Of a DNA stretch of 43,613 bases, positions 11,502-40,016 are shown in pieces. This DNA is from Bacteroidales bacterium. Lineage in GTDB: Bacteria > Bacteroidota > Bacteroidia > Bacteroidales > UBA932. Both the position numbers and the translations under genes were made by a program. The stretch lies in assembly GCA_017501525.1 (NCBI GenBank), contig JAFVWT010000011.1, forward strand, positions 195,037 to 238,649, written 5' to 3'. A model generated the notes under the pieces. That model saw only the letters and a list, made by a program, of their open reading frames with translations. It had not been told where the DNA came from and did no database searches. The stretch's first letter is position 1. Every line of letters begins with the position of its first letter.

Positions 11502-11534
11502 AATATAGAAAAAATACTAATTCCATCTATCAAA
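11500..11534 (-). promoter_or_regulatory. gcvP promoter
   Basis: On the minus strand the -7 box TATATTTG (11507-11500) is perfect. A TTTG at 11534-11531 could be the -33 box, with a rather long 23-nt spacer, and lies inside the 3' end of rodA. The leader to the ATG at 11450 is about 40 nt. Confidence 0.65.
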
Positions 11535-12938
11535 ATCTAACCTTATGTAAATAAATAACAATACTGTAAAGGTCATAAATGAGGACCCTCCGTAGCTGAT
11601 TAGTGGCAGTGGTATCCCCACAACCGGCATAATTCCGATTGTCATACCGATATTTATAAATACATGCATAAAGAGATATGATGCGATGCAATATCCGAAA
11701 ACTCTTGTAAATTTATCCTTCTGTCTCTCTGCTGTAAGGAGTATGTTCAATATTATTGTAAAGAACACTCCTATTACGGCAACAGCTCCGACAAATCCCC
11801 ATTCTTCTCCGATTGTGCAAAATATGAAGTCGGTACTCTGCTCTGGCACAAAGTTGAACTTTGTCTGAGTACCCTGGAGAAATCCTTTTCCAATAAATCC
11901 TCCTGAGCCGATAGCGATCTTTGACTGATTCACATTGTATCCGGCACCTTGCAAATCTTCGGATATTCCCAATAGATGTTCTATTCTGTCCCTGTGGTGG
12001 GGCTGGAGTATGTTGTCAAAGACAAAATCGACAGAGAAGATAATGATAAGTGATATTACGAAGGAGATAAATATCGGGAAGAAATATTTGTTTTTTCTTT
12101 TATATTCCCTTCTGCTGACAATAATTGCCGGGATAAGGATCATAATGCTTAGCCAATAATGGGGCTCTAACGGGTTGAGCTCACTTATTTGTGGAATTTG
12201 CAGAATCAGGGGAACAAATGCAGCTATTATGATGAAAACAAGATAGCTCAGTATCATTTTCATAGGTCTTCTTGAGAATGAAGTACGCATCACCCCAATT
12301 ATTCCTACAGCTACCAGCAGAGATACCGAGGGTGAATACTTCAATGTTAAAAGGAAGAGTATTACTGCAATACCAATCCAGCATAGGAACCAACCCGAGA
12401 GACCTTCGCGGTAGAAAACAAAAATTAATCCGAAGTAGACAAGTATTGTACCGACATCGGGCTGCATTGCAATCAGAAGTATCGGGATCAGGACCACCAT
12501 CACTGCTTTTAGAAACTCTTTTTTTGAGGACATCTTAAAGTTGTGTTGGCTCATTATGGTGCTAAGTAACAGTGCAGTAGATATTTTAGAGAACTCAGAT
12601 GGCTGAATGTTCATGGGGCCAATATCTATCCACGCCTTTGCTCCGTTGATCTCTTTCCCGATTATCAGTACAGCCACCAGCAAAATGGTAATCAATATGT
12701 AGAATGGAATTGCTGATGCGGAATATAATTTGGGACTTATCACAAACAGGATAAAGATGGCAACCAAAATTCCTCCCCCCATCCATATAAGTTGTGTTCC
12801 CCCTTTGTTCGCCAATGAGAATATTGAAGCTGTCTCTTCTGTGTAGGATGAGGCATATATGTTGAGCCACCCGAACAAAATCAGCAGCAGGTAGCAAATG
12901 ATCAGTGTCCAATTGAGTTTTCTATATGAATTCATCAC
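11517..12938 (-). CDS. rodA: Rod-shape peptidoglycan glycosyltransferase RodA
   Basis: 473 residues, a polytopic membrane protein of the SEDS (FtsW/RodA/SpoVE) family with about 10 or more hydrophobic segments. Family patterns are visible: NGAKAWIDIGPMNIQPSEF in the first third, GGFIGKGFLQGTQTKFNFVPE before STDFIFCTIGEEWGF, and PLPLISYGGSS near the C-terminus. RodA polymerises lipid II into glycan strands during side-wall growth together with PBP2, whose gene ends 6 nt upstream. It is somewhat longer than enterobacterial RodA because of an insert in the middle third with basic, lysine-rich loops. It is the last gene of the purH-mre-mrdA-rodA run; no terminator is seen before the gcvP promoter. 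Confidence 0.95.
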   Translation of the reverse strand: MMNSYRKLNWTLIICYLLLILFGWLNIYASSYTEETASIFSLANKGGTQLIWMGGGILVAIFILFVISPKLYSASAIPFYILITILLVAVLIIGKEINGAKAWIDIGPMNIQPSEFSKISTALLLSTIMSQHNFKMSSKKEFLKAVMVVLIPILLIAMQPDVGTILVYFGLIFVFYREGLSGWFLCWIGIAVILFLLTLKYSPSVSLLVAVGIIGVMRTSFSRRPMKMILSYLVFIIIAAFVPLILQIPQISELNPLEPHYWLSIMILIPAIIVSRREYKRKNKYFFPIFISFVISLIIIFSVDFVFDNILQPHHRDRIEHLLGISEDLQGAGYNVNQSKIAIGSGGFIGKGFLQGTQTKFNFVPEQSTDFIFCTIGEEWGFVGAVAVIGVFFTIILNILLTAERQKDKFTRVFGYCIASYLFMHVFINIGMTIGIMPVVGIPLPLISYGGSSFMTFTVLLFIYIRLDFDRWN

Positions 12939-12944
12939 TAACTT

Positions 12945-14819
12945 CTATTTTTTCTTTTTCTTTGGTCTGACATAGTCTGGGCTTGCCGGTACTTTGTGCA
13001 GAAGAGATGCTTGTGAAATCCTATCCTCCAGCCATTTGCGGTTGGGGTCAATTTCACCGTTGAGGTATTTTTCTACCATAAGGGATGCTACGGGGGCGGC
13101 CCATGTGGCGCCAAATCCTGCATTTTCAACATATACGGCAATGGCTATCTGTGGATTCTCTCTTGGGGCAAAGCATACGAAAACAGCATGTTCATCGCCA
13201 TGTGGATTCTCGGCTGTACCTGTTTTTCCACAAATGTCGAGACCGGGAACTGCGGCAATGGTGGCTGTCGCTCCTGAGCCAGGTTTTGAGTTAACAGCCT
13301 TGTACATTCCGTCAATAACACTCTCAAAATGGGTCGTGTCGACAAGAGTGTAATGTTTTTCCTTATATTTTTTGTTTAGTTCGGCATCATGATGATCCTT
13401 TATGATGTGAGGAATGTAGTAATATCCTCTATTTGCAATGGTTGCAGCTAAGTTTGCAAGTTGTAGTGGAGTGGCACCAAGTTCACCTTGTCCGATTGAG
13501 AGGGAAATGATTGAGAGATAGTTCCATCTCCCTTTTCCGTATATTTTATTATAGGTCTGAGCAGTAGGTACGAAACCGCTTTTCTCCGAGGGAAAGTCAC
13601 TGCCGAGTTTCACTCCAAAACCAAAACTTGTAACATATTTGTACCATGCGTTGTATGCTTCTTCAGTAGAGTTGTATTTCGAATTTCCCAGCAGGTTTCT
13701 GAAAAGGTAACAATAGTATGAGTTACAAGATGCCATAATCGACTCCTTGAACCCTAAAGGAGATTTGTGTGGGTGGCACCCCAGGGTCAATCCCTTTGCG
13801 CTAAAACCATTGTTGCAGGGATATTGGGTATGAATGGTGACGGCTTCTTCCTGAAGTCCGATTAAGGCATTGACCAGCTTGAATACCGAACCGGGAGGTT
13901 GTGGTGACATGATGGAACGGTTGAACATAGGTTTGAACGGGCTTCTGGAGATACTGTCGTAGTGTTTGTTTATCTCCCCCAGAATAGCGACGTCTATACC
14001 CGGACTGGAGATCATTGAGAGTATTTCACCCGAAGAGGGCTCAATAGCAATTACAGAGCCTACTTTGTTTTTCATTAGGAATTCTCCGTAGCTCTGCAGC
14101 TCTGCATCTATCGTGGAGACCACATCTTTTCCCTTTACTGCAGGTTTGTCGTATTCTCCATCCATGTATGACGACTGTATAGTATTGCGGGCATCTCTTA
14201 GAAAAATGTTATATCCTTTTTCTCCTCTGAGCAGACTTTCGCAACTCTCCTCAAGTCCGGTACTGCCGATATAATCTCCTTGCTGGTAATCAGGATTCTT
14301 TCTTAGAAATTCAGGTCCTACCTCAGTAATGTATCCCAACAGATTTCCCCCTGCATTGTATGGATACATTCGGGTAGTTCGCGGAATACCATAGAATTTT
14401 GGAAATTTGTAATTTACCTCAAGGAATCTGGCATATTGCTCCTGTGAGGTTTGCTTAAGGAATGTTACAGAGCGGAAACCTATCCTGCTTCTGTATTTTT
14501 TGTAATCTCTGAATGTCTTTCTGACATCCTCCAACTTCAGATTGAATATTCTGCAGAGCTCCAATGTGTCAAACTCCTTGACAAAGTGAGGAGTGACCAT
14601 TATATCATAAGTATTTTTATTTCCGACGAGAATTTTCCCGTTTCTGTCCAGAATCTGTCCTCTGGCAGGGTATAGAGTCTGGTAGTAGAATGCGTTGTTC
14701 TGGGCACTTATTTTAAAGCTATTATCTAGAATCTGCAATCTGAAGAGTTGGAATACCAATACGATAACAGCTAAGGACAAGCCAATAATCAGATGTTTTA
14801 CCCTATTGTTGCCTTGCAT
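12945..14819 (-). CDS. mrdA: Penicillin-binding protein 2 (class B transpeptidase)
   Basis: 624 residues. A single N-terminal membrane anchor (about 9-29) is followed by the dimerisation/pedestal domain (YPARGQILDRNG, then YPYNAGGNLLGYI). The transpeptidase domain has all three penicillin-binding motifs: SVFK with the nucleophile Ser near 310 (in PQPPGSVFK), SCN (in IMASCNSYYC) and KTGT near 532. The C-terminus is very basic (KKKKK). It cross-links new wall with RodA during elongation. It starts 2 nt after the mreD stop and is followed 6 nt later by rodA, the usual elongasome order. Confidence 0.96.
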   Translation of the reverse strand: MQGNNRVKHLIIGLSLAVIVLVFQLFRLQILDNSFKISAQNNAFYYQTLYPARGQILDRNGKILVGNKNTYDIMVTPHFVKEFDTLELCRIFNLKLEDVRKTFRDYKKYRSRIGFRSVTFLKQTSQEQYARFLEVNYKFPKFYGIPRTTRMYPYNAGGNLLGYITEVGPEFLRKNPDYQQGDYIGSTGLEESCESLLRGEKGYNIFLRDARNTIQSSYMDGEYDKPAVKGKDVVSTIDAELQSYGEFLMKNKVGSVIAIEPSSGEILSMISSPGIDVAILGEINKHYDSISRSPFKPMFNRSIMSPQPPGSVFKLVNALIGLQEEAVTIHTQYPCNNGFSAKGLTLGCHPHKSPLGFKESIMASCNSYYCYLFRNLLGNSKYNSTEEAYNAWYKYVTSFGFGVKLGSDFPSEKSGFVPTAQTYNKIYGKGRWNYLSIISLSIGQGELGATPLQLANLAATIANRGYYYIPHIIKDHHDAELNKKYKEKHYTLVDTTHFESVIDGMYKAVNSKPGSGATATIAAVPGLDICGKTGTAENPHGDEHAVFVCFAPRENPQIAIAVYVENAGFGATWAAPVASLMVEKYLNGEIDPNRKWLEDRISQASLLHKVPASPDYVRPKKKKK

Positions 14820-23936: not shown

Positions 23937-26249
23937 ATGGGAGAGAATTTAGTTATTGTAGAGTCACCAGCGAAAGCCAAAACCATCGAGAAAATTTTAG
24001 GAAAGAATTATGTGGTAAAATCGAGTTTTGGCCATATCAGGGATTTGTCCAAGAAGAAGTTAGGAATCGATATAGAGAATGATTTTACACCTGTCTATGA
24101 GATTTCTACAGAGAAGAAGAAGGTTGTTGCCGAGTTGAAAGATGCATCGTCTCAGGCGAGTACTGTATGGCTGGCATCCGATGAAGACCGTGAAGGGGAG
24201 GCAATTGCGTGGCATCTTCAGGAGACACTAAATCTTGACCCGTCAAAAACCAAACGTATCGTATTTCATGAAATTACCAAGGATGCAATCCTTAATGCCA
24301 TAGAGCAGCCCCGTATGGTGGATATGAATCTTGTTATGGCTCAACAGGCCAGAAGAGTTCTCGACCGTATTGTGGGTTTTGAGATCTCTCCAATTCTGTG
24401 GAAACGGGTAAAACCATCACTGTCAGCCGGTAGAGTCCAATCTGTAGCATTGAGGTTGGTAGTGGAAAGAGAGAGGGAGATTGCAGAGTTCAAGTCCAAG
24501 GAGTATTATCGTGTAGAGGGTATTTTCTCTAAAGGAAAATCAAAAGTCAAAGGGGTGTATGATGAGAAATTTGAGACTTTGCAACAAGCTCAGGAGTTTC
24601 TTGAAAAGTGCAGAATTTCTGAGTTTGAGGTGGTTTCTGTCGATAAAAGGGATGCAATCAGAACACCTGCCCCACCATTTACAACATCGTCGCTTCAGCA
24701 GGAAGCATCCAGAAAATGCGGCTTCTCTGTGAGTCAGACCATGACAATTGCGCAGCATCTGTATGAGGCGGGTCTGATAACATATATGAGAACCGATTCC
24801 ACCAATCTTTCAAAATTGGCTATCGGGGCTGCAAAAGAGTGGATTAACAACAACTTTGGTCCTGAATATCACAAGGCAAGACAATATAAGACAGGGGTAA
24901 AGGGCGCTCAGGAGGCCCACGAGGCAATTCGCCCTACATATATCGCAAATGCCGATATTCAAGGTTCTGCCTCTGAACGGGAACTCTACTCATTGATCTG
25001 GAAGAGGACGGTGGCATCCCAAATGGCAGATGCACGTCTTGAGAAGACCGATATTCATATCAAGGGGGATAAAATTACCGGAAAATTTGTCGTGACAGGT
25101 TCCACTGTTATCTTTGATGGTTTCTTGAAACTGTATATAGAATCAAAAGACGATGAGCCGGAGAACCAGAGTGAAGATGTTTTATTGCCGGTAATTAATG
25201 TAGGTGACGGTATGGATGTGGTTGAAATTACTGCTACTGAGAAATATACCGCCCATCCACCACGCTATTCTGAAGCTTCATTGGTGAAAAAGATGGAGGA
25301 ACTGGGAATTGGGCGTCCTTCAACATATGCTCCAACAATTACCACTTTGCATCATAGGGATTATATCCAGAAAAGAGATAAAAAAGGGGAACAGCATACT
25401 ATTAATGTAGTTACCCTAAAAGGGGATAAGATTACTTCAACACTTAAGAAGGAGAGTGTGGGGGCAGAAAAAGGTCGTCTTTCTCCCGGGGATATAGGGG
25501 TATTGGTGACAGATTTTCTTCTTGAACATTTCCCCTCGGTAATGGATTATGGTTTCACTGCAAAAGTGGAGCAGGATTTTGATAAGATTGCGGCAGGAAA
25601 AATGGTCTGGAACAAGACCATATCCTCTTTTTATAAGTCATTCCACGCATTGGTTGAGGAGGCTTCAGAGGATAATACTCATATCAAGGCGAGAAGAATC
25701 CTCGGAGTTGATCCGGCAACAGGTAAACAGGTGATTGTAAGAATGGGCCGTTTTGGATCCATTGTTCAGCTTGGAGAAGATGATGACAAGGATAAAAAGT
25801 ATGCTTCTTTGGATAAAGGTCAGTTGATAGAGACTATCACATTGGAAGAGGCGCTTCAGCTGATCTCTTTGCCGAGAGTCTTGGGAGAGTATGATGGAAA
25901 TGAAGTGATTTGTGCAAAAGGAAAATTCGGTCCATATATCAAATATGGTTCGTCATATGTGTCATTGAAAAGGGGATTCAGTCCATATACTGTAACTCTC
26001 GATCAGGCTGTTGATATGATAAAAGAGTCTGAACTCAAACAGGTTAAAAAGGATATCAAAAGTTTTCCTGAACACGATATTGAGATACTCAACGGTCGTT
26101 ATGGTCCTTACTTGAAGCATGCAGGTGAGAATTATAAACTTCCCAAAACTGCAGTTCCCGAAGATCTGACTTTACAGGATTGTCTCAAAATAATTGAGGG
26201 CGGACCTGTTTCCAAGAAGTCCAAGAGTTCTCCTAGAAAGAAGAAATAG
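23937..26249 (+). CDS. topA: DNA topoisomerase I
   Basis: 770 residues from the ATG at 23937. The frame is open further upstream, but those codons lie in the PBP1A gene and the promoter; the Toprim start NLVIVESPAKAKTIEKILG directly follows the chosen Met. Metal-binding acidic residues are in SDEDREGEAIAW. The nucleophile is Tyr283 in TYMRTDS, and RVQSVALRLVVERE marks the cleavage domain. Instead of C-terminal zinc fingers there are three short repeats of the type GRFGSIVQLG, GKFGPYIKYG and GRYGPYLKHAG, followed by a lysine/serine-rich tail. It relaxes negative supercoils. The last 17 nt overlap the convergent serine hydrolase gene. Confidence 0.97.
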   Translation: MGENLVIVESPAKAKTIEKILGKNYVVKSSFGHIRDLSKKKLGIDIENDFTPVYEISTEKKKVVAELKDASSQASTVWLASDEDREGEAIAWHLQETLNLDPSKTKRIVFHEITKDAILNAIEQPRMVDMNLVMAQQARRVLDRIVGFEISPILWKRVKPSLSAGRVQSVALRLVVEREREIAEFKSKEYYRVEGIFSKGKSKVKGVYDEKFETLQQAQEFLEKCRISEFEVVSVDKRDAIRTPAPPFTTSSLQQEASRKCGFSVSQTMTIAQHLYEAGLITYMRTDSTNLSKLAIGAAKEWINNNFGPEYHKARQYKTGVKGAQEAHEAIRPTYIANADIQGSASERELYSLIWKRTVASQMADARLEKTDIHIKGDKITGKFVVTGSTVIFDGFLKLYIESKDDEPENQSEDVLLPVINVGDGMDVVEITATEKYTAHPPRYSEASLVKKMEELGIGRPSTYAPTITTLHHRDYIQKRDKKGEQHTINVVTLKGDKITSTLKKESVGAEKGRLSPGDIGVLVTDFLLEHFPSVMDYGFTAKVEQDFDKIAAGKMVWNKTISSFYKSFHALVEEASEDNTHIKARRILGVDPATGKQVIVRMGRFGSIVQLGEDDDKDKKYASLDKGQLIETITLEEALQLISLPRVLGEYDGNEVICAKGKFGPYIKYGSSYVSLKRGFSPYTVTLDQAVDMIKESELKQVKKDIKSFPEHDIEILNGRYGPYLKHAGENYKLPKTAVPEDLTLQDCLKIIEGGPVSKKSKSSPRKKK

Positions 26250-27879
26250 TCCAGGGACCGAAATTTTCGTTGTAGTTGAAGTCAATTTCAAAACTGACGG
26301 GTCCGTTGGCATCAGGGGTATAGTTATGGAAAAAGATAGGGAATGTATGTCCTTGAGAACGAAGATGAAACTCATTGCCCCGGTGATGAGTTAATCTTTT
26401 TGTCCATCCGTATTTCCCTATAGTGATATACAATTTCCCGTCTTTAAGGAAAATCTGTGCGTCTCCAAATGGTGCCTCTTTTGTATATGTACCTGTAATT
26501 GCTGTAAACTCAGGTACTATTTTACTTCTTTCAATAGTACAAGGAACAGCCCTGCGAGAGCCTTTTTTCTTGGCTGAATACCATTTTTTCAGACCTTCTG
26601 CGCTATAATCAGTGTATTTCGAATTTGGAAGATATTGGTCAATGATATATCTCATAAGACCCAGTCTGGCATACTCAGAGACTTCTGAGTTGCAGAGAAT
26701 TGCAAATCCTAAATCAAGCTGGGGGACAAAACCGCATACTCCTGTGAAGCCCCACGTAGTACCGGTATGATATATTACTTTATAATCTTTGTTCTGCTCA
26801 ATGTACCAGCAATATCCATAATCTCTGGTGTAGGTGGAGTCTTCTCTGACCCTGATTGAGCCGCTATGAAGAAATTCCATCTCCTTTTGGGAGATTACTC
26901 TGATTGAATCTATATATGGGGTGACTCTGAATTCTCCAATGTTAAAATCTGTAAAGAACATTCTTTGGGCAAGGGTATCTTCAGAGAATGAATTATATGC
27001 AGTGGTATCAGGGTATATTTTTTTGCTGATTGTACCATTTCCCATGTGAAATTTGACCCACTTTGCCATATCTTCAGCAGTGGAGCAGATGCTTCCTGCA
27101 GGACCAATGACATTTACCCAATGGTGAGCCCTCTCTTCGCCTCTTAGTGGAGAGACCACTATTTTTCCGCCATCTTTGCTGCTGTATCCAAAGTAGTGGG
27201 CTGAGGAACTTTTGCTCCCTGCCTTTTCAAACCCTTCTGCGGTAGGGGTGGATTCATCCATATCCAATGGGTTGAAAATCAGATTCTCTATGTTTTCCTC
27301 CCAACTTATTCCTGTTACTGTCTCAATAATCCTTGCAGCTACTATAAAAGTGATATTGTTATACGCAAACTTTTCTCCTAACGGGTAGTATGGCTCAATG
27401 TATCTGAGCATCTTGTAAATATCATCCCTGTCGTAGCCTAAATTTGGAATGTATGTACCGACTTGTGCTACGAGCCCACTCGAATGGGTGAGGAGGTCTT
27501 TTACTTGTATGACTGCTTCTGTGCTGTCGCAATACCAGTCAAAATCGGGGAGAATATCTTTTACTCTGCTTTCCCAGCTCAGCAAACCTTTATCTACTAA
27601 TGACGCTATAGCTGTGGCTGTAAATGCTTTGCTCATTGATCCAATATGAAACATAGTGTTGGATCTGACAGAGTCTTTTCCTCCTTGCCTCTTGACTCCG
27701 AATCCTTCCATCAGTATCGTCGAGTCCCCCTTGATGACAGCAACCGACATTCCCGGAATTTTCCAATCCTTTCTCACCTTCTCTGCATATTCGGAGATAT
27801 TTTTGGGTATATCTTCCGCTTGTGAGAAAAGGGGGATGGAGAATATCAGAGCAAGAATTGATACTATTATATTTTTCAT
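26233..27879 (-). CDS. Secreted serine hydrolase of the beta-lactamase (S12/class C-like) family
   Basis: 548 residues from the ATG at 27879, chosen because it gives a proper signal peptide (MKNIIVSILALIFSIPLFSQA); an upstream in-frame start at 28014 would run into radA. The catalytic motifs are SMSK with the nucleophile Ser near 80 (in HIGSMSKAF), YNN near 171 as the Y-x-N motif, and HTGT near 370 in place of KTG. The C-terminal part (about 445-548) looks like the DUF3471-type beta domain (ITGTYTKEAPFGDAQIF). Such proteins are mostly peptidases, esterases or D-amino-acid hydrolases and not resistance enzymes; with so many wall genes nearby, action on wall peptides is possible but not shown. 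It has its own promoter box (27915-27922), 88 nt after radA. Confidence 0.9.
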   Translation of the reverse strand: MKNIIVSILALIFSIPLFSQAEDIPKNISEYAEKVRKDWKIPGMSVAVIKGDSTILMEGFGVKRQGGKDSVRSNTMFHIGSMSKAFTATAIASLVDKGLLSWESRVKDILPDFDWYCDSTEAVIQVKDLLTHSSGLVAQVGTYIPNLGYDRDDIYKMLRYIEPYYPLGEKFAYNNITFIVAARIIETVTGISWEENIENLIFNPLDMDESTPTAEGFEKAGSKSSSAHYFGYSSKDGGKIVVSPLRGEERAHHWVNVIGPAGSICSTAEDMAKWVKFHMGNGTISKKIYPDTTAYNSFSEDTLAQRMFFTDFNIGEFRVTPYIDSIRVISQKEMEFLHSGSIRVREDSTYTRDYGYCWYIEQNKDYKVIYHTGTTWGFTGVCGFVPQLDLGFAILCNSEVSEYARLGLMRYIIDQYLPNSKYTDYSAEGLKKWYSAKKKGSRRAVPCTIERSKIVPEFTAITGTYTKEAPFGDAQIFLKDGKLYITIGKYGWTKRLTHHRGNEFHLRSQGHTFPIFFHNYTPDANGPVSFEIDFNYNENFGPWTISSF

Positions 27880-27914
27880 TTTATTGTTTCTCTCTTTTTT
27901 GTATTCAGCTGTGG

Positions 27915-27922
27915 CAAAGTTA
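27915..27922 (-). promoter_or_regulatory. -7 box upstream of the serine hydrolase
   Basis: On the minus strand TAACTTTG followed by C fits TAnnTTTG exactly and lies 35 nt before the ATG at 27879. No good -33 box at the right distance. It supports the shorter start of the hydrolase gene. Confidence 0.45.
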
Positions 27923-27967
27923 TCGGTGGGGTTTATTATGAGGTGATAAAATTGCAAAAAGGTTCTA

Positions 27968-29362
27968 CTAATTTCCTCCCTTGAACAGTTTTTTGCAGAA
28001 AGAAGGGATATCACTTACCTCTACAATCTCAACTCCTGCTTTGGAACTTCTCTTCCGATAGTCGTCGCTCAGATTGTATGAGGAAATGTAAATAGTGCGG
28101 TATCCGAGTCGTGCAGCTTCACTGATTCTCCTTTCGATCTGACCTACGGGCCTTATCTCTCCACTAAGTCCTACTTCTGCTGCAAAGCAACTTCTGGTGG
28201 GAATTGCCAAATCAAAATTGGAGGATAAGATAGATGCAACTACTGCCAGGTCGCAAGCTGGGTCAGATACTTTAAGCCCTCCTGCAATATTCAAGAAAAC
28301 ATCCTTTGCCGATAATTTGAATCCCGCCCTCTTTTCGAGAACTGCCAGAAGCATGTTTAATCTTCGGGCATCGAATCCTGTTGCTGAGCGTTGAGCAACT
28401 CCGTAAGCAGCAGTAGATACAAGGGCTTGTATTTCAATGAGAAATGGTCTTGAACCATCTAACATGCTCCCCACTGCAATGCCGCTGAGACAATCATCGT
28501 GGATGGGGGTCAAAATCTCAGATGGGTTATTGACCTCTTTGAGTCCTCTGTCTGTCATCTCAAAAATGGCAAGTTCGGCTGTAGACCCAAATCTGTTTTT
28601 GATGCTACGCAAAATTCGGTGGGAGTGTCTTGTGTCTCCTTCAAACTGTAGAACTACATCTACAATGTGTTCCAAAACTTTGGGACCGGCTATGGAACCT
28701 TCTTTAGTGATATGGCCTATGATAATTACCGGAACATTACTCTCCTTGGCATATCTCAGGAGCATTGAGGCACATTCCCTTACTTGGGAAACTGAACTGG
28801 CGGAGGATTCTATTGTCTCTGTATAGATTGTCTGAATCGAGTCTATTACCATTAACCCGGGAGATATCTGTTTGGCCTGTTCTATTATGTTCTCAATCAA
28901 GGTCTCTCCCAGAATAATGCAATTGTCGGGACTGTTGCTCTTGACATTGTTCCCTTCAAGTAGTCTGAGGGCCCGAAGTTTAATCTGTTTTGGAGATTCC
29001 TCCCCTGAGACATAGAGTGTTTTCAGGTCGTTGCATCCGAGTGGAATCTGGAGAGATAATGTGGATTTCCCGATTCCGGGTTCACCGCCCAATAAAATAA
29101 TTGAGCCAGGGACAATGCCTCCTCCAAGTATGCGGTCTATTTCAGAATTTCCAAGGGTAATCCTATTATCTTCGTTCAAGGGAATATCCTTTAATAATAC
29201 CGGAACTGAGTTTCCTCTCTCAAGGAATGTTTTGCTTTTTTTCCCCGATTTGGGCTCTTCCACCATGGTATTCCATTCTCCGCAGGCAGGGCATTTGCCT
29301 AACCATTTGGCACTTTCATTTCCACAACTTGTACAATACCACGCACTTTTAACTTTTGCCAT
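27968..29362 (-). CDS. radA: DNA repair protein RadA (Sms)
   Basis: 464 residues. The N-terminal C4 zinc finger is CTSCG..CPACG (residues about 10-25). The RecA-like ATPase has Walker A GGEPGIGKST near 91, Walker B-type LMVIDSIQT, and the RadA signature KNRFGS near 254. The C-terminal Lon-like domain has ALVSTAAYGVAQRSATGFD and VGLSGEIRPV. It promotes branch migration and processing in recombinational repair. It starts 12 nt after malQ and is probably transcribed from the malQ promoter. Confidence 0.97.
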   Translation of the reverse strand: MAKVKSAWYCTSCGNESAKWLGKCPACGEWNTMVEEPKSGKKSKTFLERGNSVPVLLKDIPLNEDNRITLGNSEIDRILGGGIVPGSIILLGGEPGIGKSTLSLQIPLGCNDLKTLYVSGEESPKQIKLRALRLLEGNNVKSNSPDNCIILGETLIENIIEQAKQISPGLMVIDSIQTIYTETIESSASSVSQVRECASMLLRYAKESNVPVIIIGHITKEGSIAGPKVLEHIVDVVLQFEGDTRHSHRILRSIKNRFGSTAELAIFEMTDRGLKEVNNPSEILTPIHDDCLSGIAVGSMLDGSRPFLIEIQALVSTAAYGVAQRSATGFDARRLNMLLAVLEKRAGFKLSAKDVFLNIAGGLKVSDPACDLAVVASILSSNFDLAIPTRSCFAAEVGLSGEIRPVGQIERRISEAARLGYRTIYISSYNLSDDYRKRSSKAGVEIVEVSDIPSFCKKLFKGGN

Positions 29363-31891: not shown

Positions 31892-32091
31892 TTAAAAATC
31901 CAATAATTTTACGGAAACTTATGTAAATTACATGTTTTAAGGGATTCTGAAATTTAAGTAAAATTTTGAGTATGTTTTTAAGTGACTCTTTCCCATTCTC
32001 TTTCAATCACAGAGCGCTTTTATGCCTTTTCAGGAAAGACGAAAATCAGCTCAATAAATTTCATAATCCCGGCAAAGTCATTTATTGAATA

Positions 32092-32099
32092 TATCTTTA
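32092..32099 (+). promoter_or_regulatory. Weak -7-like box before the SpoIID fusion gene
   Basis: TATCTTTA differs from TAnnTTTG in the last base and lies 27 nt before the ATG at 32127. No TTTG -33 box is at the right distance. The rest of the 31892-32126 gap holds nothing I recognise. Confidence 0.3.
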
Positions 32100-32126
32100 C
32101 GAAATTATCACTTCAAAGCAGCATCA

Positions 32127-35100
32127 ATGATGAATTACCGTATTTTAAAACTCAAACCGCAGGAGCTGTTGATAACATCAGAACTTATTGAATCAAAATA
32201 TATTGCATTAGCAGAGCAGAAGCAGGTGGCAATGCTTTATTGCGACTATTATCAGGTTGCATCGGATGGAACTAAAAAGGATAATCCGGTGATAGAGTAT
32301 CAGCCGGGTTCTCTTAGGGATGATTTTGATTTCGGTCCAATGGTCTGTGTATCTGAAGAATTACTACTGCAATGGAAGGAAGAGAACGAATCAAAGGATC
32401 CGGTGAGGAATTTTTATTCCTTAAGGTTATTCCTTTCCCGCAGGGGTGAGATAGTCAGATACCCTGAGCAATTGTATGGAGTAATGGAGTACGATCCTCG
32501 TCTTTCAGGGCAGAAGCAGTTTGATTATGTTGATCCTAAAAACAGGGATTATCAGATAGAGATGGAGCGCCTTTGCACTGAACATCTGAAGTTGATCGGT
32601 GGTGCGCTTCCCGAAAGGGAACAAACCATTGACATTGACTTAAAATGGAATGGAGTAGAGGCATCTGTGATTATCCCCGTTTTGAACAGAGTCTCAACGG
32701 TGGCTGATGCGCTACACTCGGCATTGGGTCAAGTGACTGACTTTGAATATAATGTAATAGTCGTTGACAATCATTCAACGGACGGTACATCTGAAAAACT
32801 TTCACTTCTGGCAGCCCAGAATCCCCGTCTTAAGGTGATAGTGCCGCATGAGAATAATCTCGGGATTGGTGGGTGTTGGAATAAAGCTATTTACGATGAG
32901 GATTGTGGAAAATATGCAATTCAGCTTGATAGTGATGATGTGTACAGTTCTTCAGATACCTTGCAGAAAATAGTGGACAAATTTAGAAACGAGAGATGTG
33001 CTATGGTTATCGGGAGCTATATGATGACAGATTTTGATCTGAATCCTATACCTCCAGGAGTAATTGACCATAAGGAGTGGACAGATTCTAATGGGCATAA
33101 CAATGCGCTAAGAATCAATGGTCTTGGGGCGCCGAGAGCCTTCTATACACCATTGCTCAGAGAGGTAGGGGGCTTCCCAAATGTCTCTTATGGGGAAGAT
33201 TATGCTATAGGTCTCCGCTTTACCCGCGAGTATAGGCTTGGCAGAATATACGATGTGCTATACAATTGTCGCAGGTGGACTGGTAATTCGGATGCAGCAT
33301 TGAGTATAGAGAAGATTAACAAAAATAATCTGTATAAGGATTCACTCAGAAGTGCAGAGTTGGCTGAACGGATAAGACTCAATAGGGTAAATTCTCTTGA
33401 ACGTCTTTTTGATGAGCAACTCTCCAAGTGGACACAGGTAGCTCAAAGGTATCAGGAATTGGAAGATGTTACTAAAAAGAGCTTCAATGTAAGAGGATTA
33501 GAGATTGATGTTATTTTTAATCCTGCACGTGCGGTGAGTACTTTTGCAAAGACTGACTCAGATTCATTGGCTGCCCGTCCTTGTTTTCTATGTCCTGCCA
33601 ATCGTCCTGCTATCCAGAAGGGAATTCCATTAAGGCTTCGTCATGAATATTCTATAGAAGTAAATCCATTCCCTATATTTCCAAGACATTTTACAGTACC
33701 ATCCAAAGAGCATGTTCCCCAAAAGATGAGCCGTTTCAGGTATGAGGATATGCTCTCTATAGCCGAAATGTATCCCGATTATGTCGTTTTTTACAATGGC
33801 CCTGAGAGTGGAGCAAGTGCTCCGGACCATTTTCACTTTCAAATAGGCAATAAGGGATTCCTCCCTTTGGAAAGGGATTTTGGAAAGGTAGAACTCTCCA
33901 GATATATTCCGACTCTGCAGGTTATTCGAAGTAAAGATTCGTTTGTTTGTGCCAACGAGTTTGAGGAATTTTTCTCTATCTGGGGTGAAAAACTCAATAT
34001 TTTCTGCTGGATGCACTCGGATGAGTTTATTACAGTAATTGTTCCGAGGACAAAGCATAGGCCTGCATGCTATTTTGCCCCTGAACCCCAAACTGTCAGA
34101 TTGTCCCCGGGTTGTGCCGATATAGCCGGTGCTTTTATAACTGCAGATAAAAAGGATTTTGACAGGATTGATGCAAATTTGATTAGGTCTGTTATTGATG
34201 AGGTTACCACTTCCTATGTAGAATCTTCGATTAGTCAAGAACCACAAATTAGTGTGGGGTTGATGTGTTGTGAGTCAATGGATGTTTATTTTCATACGCC
34301 ATATATAACCTCGAATGGAAAAGTGCGATCATTGGAAAGGGTCTCTTTGAGAGAAGGGAAGGTCTCGTTCAGGGGAAGATTATATGATCGTCTGATTTTT
34401 GAACCGGAAGATTATGCTCAAGGGAGATTTGAACTTAGGGATGTGGTTATCGGTGTTGATTTTCACTGGGAAAGGAAAGAGAATCAGGTGTTTAATGGTA
34501 CAATAGTCTTTGTTCCGCATGGCGAAGGAATCTATGCGGTTAATATTTTGAATGTTGAGGACTACCTTTTAAGTGTTATTTCATCTGAGATGCACGAGGG
34601 TTCTTCTATTGAGTTCCTGAAGGCTCATGCAGTGATTTCCCGTTCCTGGCTTTTGGCCCGTCCTACCATTTCAGGTATTGGAATAAGAGAGGAACAGAGC
34701 CGTTATAGTTTTGTAGAGAATGATTCCACCCGTATAAGGTGGTATGATAGGGAAGATCATACATTTTTTGATGTTTGCGCTGATGACCATTGCCAGAGGT
34801 ATCAGGGAATTCTCAGATTGAGTGATCCTAAGATGAGAGAGGTGATAGAATCGACTCGGGGCCAAGTGCTTATGTATGACGGAGAAATATGTGACGCCAG
34901 ATTTTCAAAATGTTGTGGAGGTGTTTCGGAAAGATTCAATGTCTGCTGGGATGATAGCGATTACCCCTATTTGAGTCCTGTCTCTGATTCGGTAGATGGA
35001 GTTGGAGGGGCGGTCGCTCATGTAGATTCTCCTAAGGATTGGATTCTTGCCAGCCCGGAGGCATTTTGCAACACCAATGATACGGAACTGTTATCGAGAC

Positions 35101-35555
35101 TGTTGAATAATTATGATAGGGAGACAACAGATTTCTTCCGTTGGAAGGTCGAATATACCCAGCAGGAACTTGCTGAAATAATTTCCAAAAGAAGTGGAAT
35201 CGATTTTGGTGCAATAATGGCTTTGGAACCATTAAAATACGGTGCTTCGGGCAGAATATATCAGCTCAGAATAGTCGGAACTCGTCGGACAATGGTTGTG
35301 GGAAAAGAATTAGAGATTCGCAAGTGTTTGTCAAACAGCCATTTGTATAGCTCTGCATTTGTTGTTTCGACTCAAGGTTGTCAGGAGGTTGACGGGGTGA
35401 AGGTACCTTCAAAATTTATACTTAATGGAGCCGGATGGGGACATGGTGTCGGTTTGTGCCAAATAGGGGCAGCTGTAATGGGTGAAAAAGGTTATACCTA
35501 TAAAGAGATATTGGAACACTATTTCAGAAACTCCCAAATTGAGAAGTTGTACTAA
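32127..35555 (+). CDS. Three-part fusion: GT2 glycosyltransferase + GalT/HIT-like DUF4922 + SpoIID/LytB
   Basis: 1142 residues from the ATG at 32127 (a second ATG follows directly; an in-frame TTG lies at 32085). Residues 1-170 resemble the second half of a GT2-type domain ([17 protein letters not shown]). Residues about 177-400 are a full GT2 domain: [24 protein letters not shown] near 267 and a later GEDY. Residues about 455-690 are DUF4922-like, with CFLCPANRP near 485 and HFHFQ near 565, matching the Cys pair and the H-x-H-x-Q active site of galactose-1-phosphate uridylyltransferase and GDP-sugar phosphorylases. Residues about 740-1142 are SpoIID/LytB: SSEMHEG near 816 with the catalytic-type Glu, AHAVISRSW, and [15 protein letters not shown] near 1101. 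There is no signal peptide or membrane segment, odd for a SpoIID wall-lytic domain. An ampG-type permease follows after 47 nt. Inferred role: cytoplasmic handling of imported wall sugars; the reaction is unknown. Confidence 0.9.
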
Positions 35556-35602: not shown

Positions 35603-36907
35603 ATGAGAAAAACTAAAAAGGCACCAATGTGGTGGATTCCAACATTATATTTGGCAGAAGGGTTGCCCTATATTGCTGTGAATACTTTATCTACAATTCT
35701 TTACAAAAACATGGGTATGTCTAATGAAGATCTAGCATTTTATACAGGTTGGTTATATCTTCCCTGGGTTATCAAACCTTTCTGGAGCCCTTTTGTGGAT
35801 ATTTTGAAGACGAAAAGGTGGTGGACAATTTATACTCAACTTCTGATTGGAATATCCTTTGCGGCACTTGCATTCGTGTTGCCGTTGAGCAATTACCTTA
35901 TTCTTTCCCTGGTAATTTTCTGGGTAATCGGATTCCTTTCTGCTACCCACGATATTGCCGCTGACGGTTTTTATATGCTTGCGTTGGACAGTAGCGACCA
36001 ATCTTTGTATGTCGGCATCAGAAGTGCATTCTATCGTCTTGCAACAATTCTTGGGCAAGGAGGGATAGTTATTGCTGCAGGTTATCTGGAACTCTCCACC
36101 GGTAATATCCCTTTGGCTTGGGCGATAACTTTTGCAATGTTGTCGGTTTTGTTCATCGCTGTAACATTTTATCACATAAATGTCTTGCCCAAACCCGAGA
36201 GTGATTGTTCAAGTGTCGGAAATGTAAAAAAAGTGGATGTCCTGAAGGAATTTTTCGGAACATTCCGCTCATTTTTTAAAAAGAAGGGAGTATGGATTGC
36301 GGTGCTATTTATCTTGCTGTATCGTTTCCCTGAGGCCCAACTTGTGAAGATGATAAACCCTTTCTTCCTCGATTCAGTAAGTGAAGGGGGATTGGGGATG
36401 AGTACGAGTGAGGTTGGGCTTGTCTATGGAACAATCGGTATTATAGGACTGACATTAGGAGGAATCTTAGGGGGGTATATTGTCTCAAGGATAGGTCTGA
36501 AGCGCTCTTTGTGGCCTATGGCTCTTTCTATTACCCTTCCTTGTGCAGTTTTTTGTTGGATGAGTATATCCCAACCCGATCCAGGCACTCTATTGGATAT
36601 GATTCTGATTAATTTGGCAGTCTTTATTGAACAATTCGGCTATGGGGTTGGATTTACTTCGTTTATGCTCTATATGATGTATTTTTCTGAGGGGCCAAGC
36701 CAAACTTCTCATTATGCAATTTGTACCGCTTTTATGGCATTGGGAATGATGATTCCGGGAATGTTTGCAGGGTGGATTCAGCAGATGCTCGGCTATGTCA
36801 ATTTCTTCTGGTGGATAATGCTGTGCTGTATTGTTACATTGGGTGTTACTGCAATGATAAAGGTTGACCCTTCGTTTGGTGTTAAAAAGCAAAGTGAACT
36901 TCCATAA
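35603..36907 (+). CDS. ampG: AmpG-type muropeptide permease (MFS)
   Basis: 434 residues with about 12 membrane segments. The start (TLYLAEGLPYIAVNTLSTILYKNMG), GWLYLPWVIKPFWSPFVD and the conserved ATHDIAADGFYMLAL with a later YRLATILGQGG are typical of the AmpG/PAT branch of the major facilitator superfamily. AmpG carries GlcNAc-anhydro-MurNAc and its peptides from periplasm to cytoplasm for wall recycling. It lies 47 nt after the GT2-DUF4922-SpoIID gene, probably in one transcript. Family assignment is firm; the exact substrate here is inferred. Confidence 0.88.
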   Translation: MRKTKKAPMWWIPTLYLAEGLPYIAVNTLSTILYKNMGMSNEDLAFYTGWLYLPWVIKPFWSPFVDILKTKRWWTIYTQLLIGISFAALAFVLPLSNYLILSLVIFWVIGFLSATHDIAADGFYMLALDSSDQSLYVGIRSAFYRLATILGQGGIVIAAGYLELSTGNIPLAWAITFAMLSVLFIAVTFYHINVLPKPESDCSSVGNVKKVDVLKEFFGTFRSFFKKKGVWIAVLFILLYRFPEAQLVKMINPFFLDSVSEGGLGMSTSEVGLVYGTIGIIGLTLGGILGGYIVSRIGLKRSLWPMALSITLPCAVFCWMSISQPDPGTLLDMILINLAVFIEQFGYGVGFTSFMLYMMYFSEGPSQTSHYAICTAFMALGMMIPGMFAGWIQQMLGYVNFFWWIMLCCIVTLGVTAMIKVDPSFGVKKQSELP

Positions 36908-36984: not shown

Positions 36985-38208
36985 ATGGAAAAAATTCTCG
37001 ACAGATTTTTAAGGTATGTGGCAATAGATACAATGTCAGATCCTGACTCACCTACTCAGCCAAGTACTAACAAACAATACAATCTGCTTACTCTCCTTTG
37101 TGAAGAACTTCGTCAGATGGGTGTAGAAGATGTTACTGTAGACAAGTATGGTTACCTGATGGCAACTATTCCTTCCAATATTGATAAGGATGTCCCCGCT
37201 GTAGGATTTATTGCACATGTGGATTCTTCTCCTGATGCCAGTGGAACTGATATCAAACCTCAAATATTTGAAAATTATGATGGTGGAGATATTGTTATAA
37301 ACAAGGATAAAGGAATGAAACTTTCACCTTCCGAATTCCCCGAACTTCGTAAATATATAGGGCAGACCATTGTTACCACTGATGGAACTACTTTGCTTGG
37401 GGCAGATGATAAGGCTGGAGTAGCCGAGATTATGTGTGCTGCAGAGTATATTATGACTCATCCTGAATTCAAGCATGGAGAGATAAAGATTGGATTTACT
37501 CCTGATGAAGAAATTGGACGTGGTGTCGATTATTTTGATGTGGAAAAATTTGGAGCAAAATATGCTTACACCATGGATGGTGGTCAGATTGGAGAACTAG
37601 AATATGAAAACTTTAATGCGGCAGGAGCAAAAATATCTATTCAGGGACGCAATATTCACCCTGGTTATGCAAAAGACAAAATGCTCAATGCGATTCTTCT
37701 TGCCAGTGAACTTAACGATATGTTGCCTGTATGGCAAAGACCTGAACACACTCAAGGCTATGAGGGATTCTTCCATATTGTGAAGTTCTCGGGAGTGGTA
37801 GAGGAGGCTACAATCCAGTATATAATCAGAGATCACGATTCTGAACTCTTCGAACAGAAGAAAAAACTTCTTCAGCAGTGTGTGGACTTTATGAATGCTA
37901 AATATGGGGAAGGTATTTTCACTCTTGAGATGAAAGACCAATATTACAATATGCGAAAAGAGGTTGAGCCTCATTATCATATTGTCGAGACAGCCGTTAA
38001 AGCAATGGAGATGGCAGGAATAGAGGTGGATATTCGTCCAATTCGAGGTGGTACAGATGGAGCTCGTCTTTCATTTATGGGACTTCCTTGCCCCAATATC
38101 TTTGCAGGAGGACATAATTTCCATGGAAAATTTGAGTATGTTCCCGTTCAAAGTATGGAGAAAGCAACAGAAGTAATTCTTAATATATTGAAAATATACG
38201 CAGAGTAA
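36985..38208 (+). CDS. pepT: Peptidase T (tripeptide aminopeptidase)
   Basis: 407 residues, family length. M20 metallopeptidase motifs are in place: HVD (His78, Asp80), GADDKAG with Asp141 as bridging ligand, TPDEEIGRG with the catalytic Glu, YTMDGG, and AGGHNFHGKFE near the C-terminus. It removes N-terminal residues from tripeptides in the cytoplasm. Its stop overlaps the alaX start (TAATG). Beside AmpG and an OPT transporter it could finish the breakdown of imported peptides (inference). Confidence 0.97.
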   Translation: MEKILDRFLRYVAIDTMSDPDSPTQPSTNKQYNLLTLLCEELRQMGVEDVTVDKYGYLMATIPSNIDKDVPAVGFIAHVDSSPDASGTDIKPQIFENYDGGDIVINKDKGMKLSPSEFPELRKYIGQTIVTTDGTTLLGADDKAGVAEIMCAAEYIMTHPEFKHGEIKIGFTPDEEIGRGVDYFDVEKFGAKYAYTMDGGQIGELEYENFNAAGAKISIQGRNIHPGYAKDKMLNAILLASELNDMLPVWQRPEHTQGYEGFFHIVKFSGVVEEATIQYIIRDHDSELFEQKKKLLQQCVDFMNAKYGEGIFTLEMKDQYYNMRKEVEPHYHIVETAVKAMEMAGIEVDIRPIRGGTDGARLSFMGLPCPNIFAGGHNFHGKFEYVPVQSMEKATEVILNILKIYAE

Positions 38209-38732: not shown

Positions 38733-40016
38733 TTATCTGTAAAAGTGGTATTTGGCTGAAACCTTTCTGAAGGTATCAGCATCAAATCTCCATTCTTCCT
38801 TGATGTCGTCAAACCGATAGCTTTTCCCGAAGGATTTCCTTATTGTTGAGTTTCCGACCACCTTGTCAAACATCTCAAGTCTTGATTTGTCCGCTTTGCC
38901 AAAAGGATTGAATTCATCCACCATTGTATGCAGTACCTGTAGAGCGTAGAATTGTACTTCTGTCAGGCGTGCGGTTGCGAAATCTGTGATATAAATCTGT
39001 ACACCACCAATCTCTTTCCCTTTATAAGAACCATAAAAAGGGTTTGCATAGATGGGCCTGAAAAGCAGCCCTTCAAGAGATAGGGAATTCATTCTCTGTG
39101 CAAATTTGTCGGCATCAACTCCGGGAAGAGCAATCATCTGGAAAGGTAGTGTGTAACCTATCCCAATGGAGACGGTTCCGAGTTCTCCCAAAATACCTGT
39201 AGCAGGATAAAGGTAGGCGGCTTCAGGAGTAGGTATATGTGGAGAAGTGGGGACCCATTCCAGCCCTGTATCTTTCCAGTTCATATCCCTTTTCCATCCC
39301 TCCATTTTGACAACCTTCAAATTGCATTTGACTGTGCTGTCTTTACCATCTTTTCCTTTTACCTTCAGAAGCCCTTCTTCATTTATAAGGGTCGCCAACT
39401 CTCCGCAAGTGAGACCATATATATAAGGTATCTGGAATTGTCCCACAAATGAGATAAACTCATCTTCCACTACGGGACCTTCAACTCTGTTCCCGCCCAA
39501 AGGATTTGGCCTGTCCAGGATTATCATTTCAACTCCTTCAGTAGCCGCTACTTTCATAACATTTCCCATTGTACTTATATATGTGTATGAGCGGCATCCA
39601 ATATCTTGAATGTCGTAGACAATAGCGTCTAAGTCCTTGAGGGCTTCGCTTGAAGGAAGTCTTGATTTTCCGTATAATGAGTAGATTGGAACACCGGTTA
39701 TAGGGTCAATCCCCGCATCAGAGACCTTCTCACCTGCGTGAGCATTGCCTCTGACACCATGTTCCGGTCCGAATAGTGCAACCAATGTAACTCCGGGAGC
39801 ATTGAACAATACATCAATGGTAGAATTGAGGTATCTGTCCACCCCTGTAGGGTTTGTTACAAGGCCGATTCTTTTCCCTTTAAGTAAGGAGAACCCACTT
39901 TCTTCCAATACATCGATTCCGTTTTTCACCGTTTGTGCTTCTGAAGTGCTGCAAGAAAACAATATTGTCAGAAACGATAGTAGAAAAATATAATTTGTCT
40001 TTTTCAAATACTTCAT
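38733..40016 (-). CDS. DUF1343 / NamZ-like exo-beta-N-acetylmuramidase lipoprotein (GH171)
   Basis: 427 residues. A lipoprotein signal ends at LFSC (Cys22). The DUF1343 body begins with GIDVLEESGFSLLKGKRIGLVTNPTG; the likely catalytic Glu is in FGPEHGVRG near residue 84, followed by YDIQDIGCRSYTYISTM near 134 and LDRPNPLGG. The family was defined by Bacillus subtilis NamZ (YbbC), which removes MurNAc from the non-reducing ends of peptidoglycan chains; I apply this by homology. Here it is membrane-anchored and lies in an operon with ZIP and OPT transporters, facing the ampG region, which supports a wall-salvage role. Confidence 0.9.
   Translation of the reverse strand: MKYLKKTNYIFLLSFLTILFSCSTSEAQTVKNGIDVLEESGFSLLKGKRIGLVTNPTGVDRYLNSTIDVLFNAPGVTLVALFGPEHGVRGNAHAGEKVSDAGIDPITGVPIYSLYGKSRLPSSEALKDLDAIVYDIQDIGCRSYTYISTMGNVMKVAATEGVEMIILDRPNPLGGNRVEGPVVEDEFISFVGQFQIPYIYGLTCGELATLINEEGLLKVKGKDGKDSTVKCNLKVVKMEGWKRDMNWKDTGLEWVPTSPHIPTPEAAYLYPATGILGELGTVSIGIGYTLPFQMIALPGVDADKFAQRMNSLSLEGLLFRPIYANPFYGSYKGKEIGGVQIYITDFATARLTEVQFYALQVLHTMVDEFNPFGKADKSRLEMFDKVVGNSTIRKSFGKSYRFDDIKEEWRFDADTFRKVSAKYHFYR

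Follow-up and report, generated by a model that had tools for sequence, protein, structure and literature searches.

A fused GT2–DUF4922–SpoIID gene beside ampG as a candidate peptidoglycan salvage module in Bacteroidota

The fusion gene and its neighbors

The window, a 43,613-nucleotide stretch of a Bacteroidales genome (GenBank: GCA_017501525.1, contig JAFVWT010000011.1), carries on its forward strand a gene (32127..35555) that joins GT2, DUF4922, and SpoIID/LytB domains in a single chain of 1142 residues, as the initial annotation had read it. The GT2 domain (32652..33395, + strand) contains DSDD at residues 268-271 and GED at 356-358, and its PF00535 match together with the DxD and catalytic-base motifs places it in glycosyltransferase family 2. 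It is followed by the DUF4922 domain (residues 416-708; 33372..34250, + strand), with Cys486/489 and H568-x-H570-x-Q572, and by the SpoIID/LytB domain (residues 703-1142; 34233..35552, + strand), with Glu821, CADDHCQ at 884-890, and GHGVG at 1105-1109. This last domain has the SpoIID fold and scores above the curated cut-offs of both PF08486 (75.8 bits; cut-off 23) and TIGR02669 (156.8 bits; cut-off 83.3). No signal peptide was seen, and hydropathy revealed no export signal in the fusion of the kind that marks exported SpoIID lytic transglycosylases. The AF2 model of the 1142-residue protein has a mean pLDDT of 87.1 and a pTM of 0.61, the latter too low for placing the domains relative to one another or for tracing a channel.

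The best structural match of the GT2 part is a polysaccharide polymerase. K4 chondroitin polymerase (2z86) shares the GT-A fold of the GT2 domain, and a tandem GT-A layout is probably common to both proteins, with a first half that looks degenerate in the fusion. The region concerned, residues 1-175 (32127..32651, + strand), gave no Pfam match in the window fusion; its counterpart in the T. forsythia GT2 relative matches PF13506 weakly (E 0.06), and positions within it are conserved across GT2 relatives. From these sequence comparisons, residues 1-175 are probably a degenerate GT-A-like half. This first half is about 70 residues shorter in the window (32085-32127) and in a genus mate than in relatives, and it may be decaying in the window's genus. 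The motifs of the GT2 domain itself are retained among relatives (DxDD in 90/92, GED in 91/92).

The nucleotidyl domain had been annotated as GalT-type. By fold, Apa2 (Ap4A phosphorylase) is closer, and GalT was rejected as the nearest relative: DUF4922 shows an Apa2-type fold, in the Ap4A-phosphorylase branch of the GalT/Apa/HIT superfamily. Identity to Apa2 (4i5t) is 17-18%, and DUF4922 differs in carrying an extra Cys pair, in being bacterial, and in its linkage to wall-sugar genes. The nucleophile motif H-x-H-F-Q occurs in 90 of 98 homologues; the remaining eight are among the 94 with the looser H-x-H-x-Q, so that all 98 carry one pattern or the other. The fold evidence for GT2 and DUF4922 is compatible with nucleotide-sugar use and phosphorolysis and goes no further.

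An AmpG-type MFS permease (35603..36907, + strand) begins 47 bp downstream of the fusion. It matches TIGR00901 at E 9e-52, with 176 bits against a curated cut-off of 350. Peptidase T (PepT; 36985..38208, + strand; TIGR01882) comes next; the loci read show no conserved association of it with the trio. On the opposite strand lies a NamZ-type exo-β-N-acetylmuramidase (38733..40016, − strand) with 54% identity to a NamZ_N plus NamZ_C protein (L039:13046-14278); in relatives, the NamZ gene often sits within the operon.

A conserved gene set with a leaderless SpoIID

Bacteroidales mostly encode the three enzymes as separate genes, in the order GT2–DUF4922–SpoIID–AmpG, often followed by NamZ–MurT–MurK–MurQ. 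Many of the 35 DUF4922 loci read besides the window contain GT2, DUF4922, SpoIID, AmpG, and NamZ, and some add a Golvesin_C protein (with Amidase_3 in L058), a MurK-like BadF-type kinase, or a MurQ-like SIS protein. Among the best 80 named loci listed, fetched by SpoIID profile, 29 have three separate genes and 15 the triple fusion. A GT2–DUF4922 fusion beside SpoIID (eight loci), a DUF4922–SpoIID fusion beside GT2 (five), and a DUF4922–SpoIID fusion with GT2 out of reach (three) also occur, as do GT2 with SpoIID (four) and DUF4922 with SpoIID (three); the other 13 have neither GT2 nor DUF4922 in reach. AmpG lies on the same strand within 500 bp in 63 of these 80 loci, including 15/15 triple fusions. 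How common the architecture is had been left open in the initial annotation; by this count, the triple-fusion order is not rare. The single chain is not essential, since many relatives encode the trio as separate genes in one cluster, and the clusters bear out the proposed AmpG link and wall-salvage setting. The fusion is a real, single-gene form of a conserved gene set. The 15 triple-fusion loci are titled Prevotella, Alloprevotella, Paraprevotella, Segatella, and Xylanibacter, the last four of which we take to be kin of Prevotella. In the stretches read, these loci contain no NamZ or MurT gene, and one has a MurK-like gene.

The complete split gene order is found in T. forsythia ATCC 43037 (L081), on the published contig NZ_JUET01000082 (PMC5388701). 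Its genes and their order are those of Tanf_08345-08385, described as a muropeptide/MurNAc operon (PMC5388701, PMC7670621), in which the places of GT2, DUF4922, and SpoIID in the order are taken by Tanf_08350, 08355, and 08360, respectively. The published names run gtf, gtf, lytB, ampG, ybbC (PMC5388701). The accessible parts of both papers assign no function to these three genes, which are separate in T. forsythia and one gene in the window. We found no published function for the trio in the open literature, outside which most subscription journals lie.

The operon's first gene (L081:2421-5564, L058:4450-7533), named xanthan lyase in T. forsythia, encodes Golvesin_C and an amidase-like region (Amidase_3 at E 2e-7 in L058 and 0.02 in T. 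forsythia); judging by these matches, the product is possibly a periplasmic amidase. AmpG-like frames come in different lengths: among 96 in the loci read, 23 have at least 590 residues and 65 have 400-480. One long form (L032:9772-11646) contains a soluble insertion of about 190 residues between transmembrane parts, which is absent from the window's AmpG (434 residues).

The catalytic-type Glu of SpoIID is conserved in 107/107 sequences, and CADDHCQ in 23/23 SpoIIDs reached through DUF4922. SpoIID motif conservation among the 80 named loci is partly built in, as the patterns CADDHCQ and GWGHGVGL served to retrieve them; viral contigs gave no match to the patterns used. In separate SpoIIDs, the first strand of the fold comes right at the N-terminus. 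By a simple N-terminal hydropathy measure (not SignalP), a strongly hydrophobic N-terminus is present in 2/69 separate trio-type SpoIIDs versus 16/19 ordinary SpoIIDs of Bacteroidales. The first sample comprises 69 of 76 separate copies, seven with an over-long first frame being excluded; the second comprises 19 of the 20 loci fetched, one having given no frame. Judged by eye, the two exceptions reflect a 'VGIL' strand. Neither an upstream signal sequence nor loss of active-site residues across homologues was encountered, in keeping with the initial annotation's claims of a missing export signal and intact active sites.

In the SpoIID tree, one branch separates 40 leaderless-family members from 19 ordinary SpoIIDs with 100/100 support, with a warning for long branches. 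Best SpoIID matches per Bacteroidales genome are bimodal, with E below 1e-60 for the leaderless family and 1e-10 to 1e-25 for the others. Unlike the SpoIID/LytB lytic transglycosylases of B. subtilis, C. difficile, and chlamydiae, the trio SpoIID lacks an export signal, forms a separate tree group, and sits in a cluster with GT2 and DUF4922 or is fused to them. A second, intermediate SpoIID (frames of 442-472 residues), matching the family profile at E 1e-46 to 1e-54, accompanies the strong match in four genomes outside the class (G428, G459, G490, G617).

Co-occurrence with AmpG, AnmK, and NagZ

Of 149 Bacteroidales genomes sampled, 36 contain DUF4922. Leaderless SpoIID accompanies it in 36/36 of these, compared with 1/113 genomes lacking DUF4922 (G096). 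Outside the class but in the same phylum (80 genomes), the figures are 44/45 and 0/35. AmpG (E ≤ 1e-30) was detected in 34/37 SpoIID-positive versus 12/112 SpoIID-negative genomes of the 149, and two of the three SpoIID-positive genomes missed by this search (G038, G128) do carry an AmpG gene in the cluster. Ten of the 12 SpoIID-negative genomes with AmpG have AnmK, so that SpoIID or AnmK is present in 44/46 AmpG-bearing genomes.

The relation to AnmK, which the initial annotation did not foresee, is the most specific functional hint. AnmK occurs in 13/100 SpoIID-positive versus 240/293 SpoIID-negative Bacteroidales genomes (393 genomes: SpoIID only 87, both 13, AnmK only 240, neither 53), and outside the class in 16/44 versus 34/36 (80 genomes: SpoIID only 28, both 16, AnmK only 34, neither 2). 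Fisher tests, which ignore kinship, gave p values of 1e-35 and 3.5e-8, respectively. One genome with a weak SpoIID match (G379, E 1.6e-25) and AnmK was scored SpoIID-negative. Leaderless SpoIID occurs in 33 families, in 20 of which no sampled genome has AnmK. On an rpoB tree of the 80 genomes outside the class (midpoint root, parsimony states), an all-loss (Dollo) reconstruction places 14/15 AnmK losses on SpoIID-positive branches, which make up 41% of the tree length (binomial p 4e-5). Equal-cost parsimony places six AnmK losses and five gains on SpoIID-positive branches and two gains on SpoIID-negative ones, which leaves room for AnmK having been regained; an independent-pairs test yielded three supported pairs only. 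SpoIID and AnmK are not in strict exchange, because 29 genomes (13 + 16) carry both; 55 (53 + 2) carry neither. We read the pattern as AnmK being dispensable where the module is present, rather than as a strict swap.

NagZ-type GH3 was found in 20/28 genomes, none of the matches reaching the model's curated cut-off. All 23 such loci fetched encode a strongly hydrophobic N-terminus, and 22 of the 23 the KHFPG motif; a 362-residue GH3 frame of T. forsythia has the hydrophobic N-terminus and lacks KHFPG. At E ≤ 1e-10, no GH3 was detected in 7/14 trio genomes, among them the window's (83% complete) and its genus mate's (99% complete). In two genomes of one genus (G616, G773), a NamZ–AmpG–GT2–DUF4922 cluster ends, at the SpoIID position, in a leaderless NagZ-like GH3 with KHFPGHG (L200:10025-11104, L315:2663-3706); in G616, AnmK is present and a leaderless SpoIID absent. 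SpoIID therefore looks interchangeable with the NagZ/AnmK pair, and from this gene content GT2 and DUF4922 look to serve something needed alongside either. The idea that GT2 and DUF4922 substitute for NagZ is weakened, both being kept beside a leaderless NagZ in these two genomes. In two further loci (L036:3940-5379, L037:8092-9006), a GNAT acetyltransferase stands between DUF4922 and AmpG in SpoIID's stead, joined in L036 by a GDSL hydrolase; both genomes have SpoIID elsewhere.

A possible route for imported wall disaccharides

T. forsythia offers the closest published setting. According to the accessible text of two studies, its permease shows AmpG function when placed in an E. coli reporter strain (PMC5388701) and imports both peptide-free disaccharides, GlcNAc-anhMurNAc and GlcNAc-MurNAc, on which the wild type grows and an ampG mutant does not (PMC7670621). 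Free anhMurNAc gives poor, AmpG-independent growth only, no AnmK ortholog is predicted, and the processing of AmpG-imported fragments is called an open question (PMC7670621, in the part accessible). A chlamydial SpoIID is described, again in the accessible text, as turning peptide-free glycans mostly into non-anhydro products, and water can thus serve as acceptor (PMC6635528).

We consider the chances evenly divided that GT2, DUF4922, and the leaderless SpoIID form a cytosolic module, fused in the window, for processing AmpG-imported wall disaccharides. This reading builds on the observed gene fusion, conserved clustering, absent export signal, co-occurrence, AnmK pattern, and intact folds and motifs. 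Location and linkage are well supported, and each substrate and reaction is what we infer. The SpoIID-bearing protein is very probably cytosolic, and the module likely acts on AmpG-imported wall sugars; that SpoIID performs the anhydro-ring step falls slightly short of an even chance, and the particular GT2 and DUF4922 reactions named below are unlikely to be correct. The wall-recycling interpretation of the initial annotation survives in part: the missing export signal, the motifs, the AmpG link, and the setting hold; the GalT type and MurNAc-1-phosphate, to which nothing points, drop out; and the chain of cutting, activation, and transfer stands as a hypothesis.

In the proposed route, an amidase and NamZ outside the membrane would trim wall material, and peptide-free GlcNAc-anhMurNAc and GlcNAc-MurNAc would enter through AmpG. 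The leaderless SpoIID would then use its active site of lytic-transglycosylase type in reverse, with water (or another acceptor) attacking C1 of the 1,6-anhydro sugar and converting anhMurNAc to MurNAc without AnmK and without ATP. This role is proposed because SpoIID acts at MurNAc C1 and water can be the acceptor; the anhydro bond, as the only MurNAc C1 bond in GlcNAc-anhMurNAc, would be the target. GT2 and the Apa2-like DUF4922 would couple ring opening to nucleotide-sugar chemistry, for example by UDP-dependent GlcNAc transfer and then phosphorolysis of the NDP-sugar, and MurNAc would proceed to MurK/MurQ or to UDP-MurNAc. The trio would do the same overall job as the E. coli AnmK/NagZ route, turning AmpG-imported GlcNAc-anhMurNAc into usable sugars; no sequence relation between the two was noticed, and genomes with the trio carry AnmK far less often. 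Partial fusions as well as the triple fusion count for a module. Against it count the 13/80 best named loci with neither GT2 nor DUF4922 in reach, the pTM of 0.61, the 29 genomes with both AnmK and SpoIID, and the consideration that NamZ and MurTKQ alone could make AnmK dispensable. The AmpG-independent growth of T. forsythia on anhMurNAc (PMC7670621, accessible part) makes another use of this sugar, or SpoIID acting on it in free form, possible.

On a more conventional account, AmpG imports longer peptide-free oligomers, SpoIID cuts MurNAc–GlcNAc bonds in the cytosol as an ordinary lytic transglycosylase or muramidase, and AnmK is lost as NamZ, MurT, MurK, and MurQ supply MurNAc. The invariant catalytic-type Glu (107/107) and the frequent presence of NamZ and murTKQ in the cluster agree with it. 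Standard cutting would, however, yield more anhMurNAc and require AnmK, the 15 triple-fusion loci (of the best 80 listed) have no NamZ or MurT and a single MurK-like gene in the stretch read, and the T. forsythia data, so far as accessible, indicate that AmpG takes up mainly disaccharides (PMC7670621); we find this account improbable. To our knowledge, characterized SpoIIDs act outside the cytosol, and the SpoIID part might be exported by an unknown route to work in the periplasm like its relatives. With a hydrophobic N-terminus in just 2/69 separate copies by simple hydropathy, and with the domain covalently joined to two enzymes that are expected to require nucleotide substrates, export is very hard to credit.

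We likewise doubt that the trio is a building module. GT2 enzymes normally work in the synthetic direction, and the polysaccharide polymerase as best structural match of the GT2 part would suit a pathway in which an imported wall sugar is extended by GT2 and DUF4922 into a glycoside or glycoconjugate, for storage, envelope, or protein glycosylation, with SpoIID trimming or transferring the product. Such a pathway leaves both the AnmK pattern in two genome sets and the linkage to NamZ, MurT, MurK, and MurQ unexplained.

The locus would belong to a known kind of system, peptidoglycan salvage, and the module is conserved, lacks an export signal, and is associated with the presence of AmpG and with a lack of AnmK. 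The trio is a good candidate for the way in which many Bacteroidota of gut and mouth use imported wall fragments without the usual enzyme. The ampG-adjacent genes of T. forsythia and the fused form described here provide specific candidates for fragment processing, in a set widespread in Bacteroidales, and make that open question testable. In its furthest-reaching and tentative form, which is possible though hardly probable, the salvage proposal would have a cytosolic enzyme of lytic-transglycosylase type open the imported 1,6-anhydro bond, or use it as an energy-rich donor, replacing AnmK in much of Bacteroidota, with GT2 and the Apa2-like phosphorylase splitting or re-using GlcNAc through a nucleotide sugar. 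This would be a third peptidoglycan recycling route beside NagZ/AnmK and AmgK/MurU, and a SpoIID that handles an anhydro sugar in the cytosol would put a wall-cutting fold to new use.

Elsewhere in the window, adjoining genes for a RodA/FtsW-type protein and a PBP transpeptidase (11517-14819, − strand) resemble an ordinary elongation cluster. A 593-residue serine hydrolase of the β-lactamase fold (26233-28014) is encoded on the opposite strand from the wall-salvage genes, some kilobases away.
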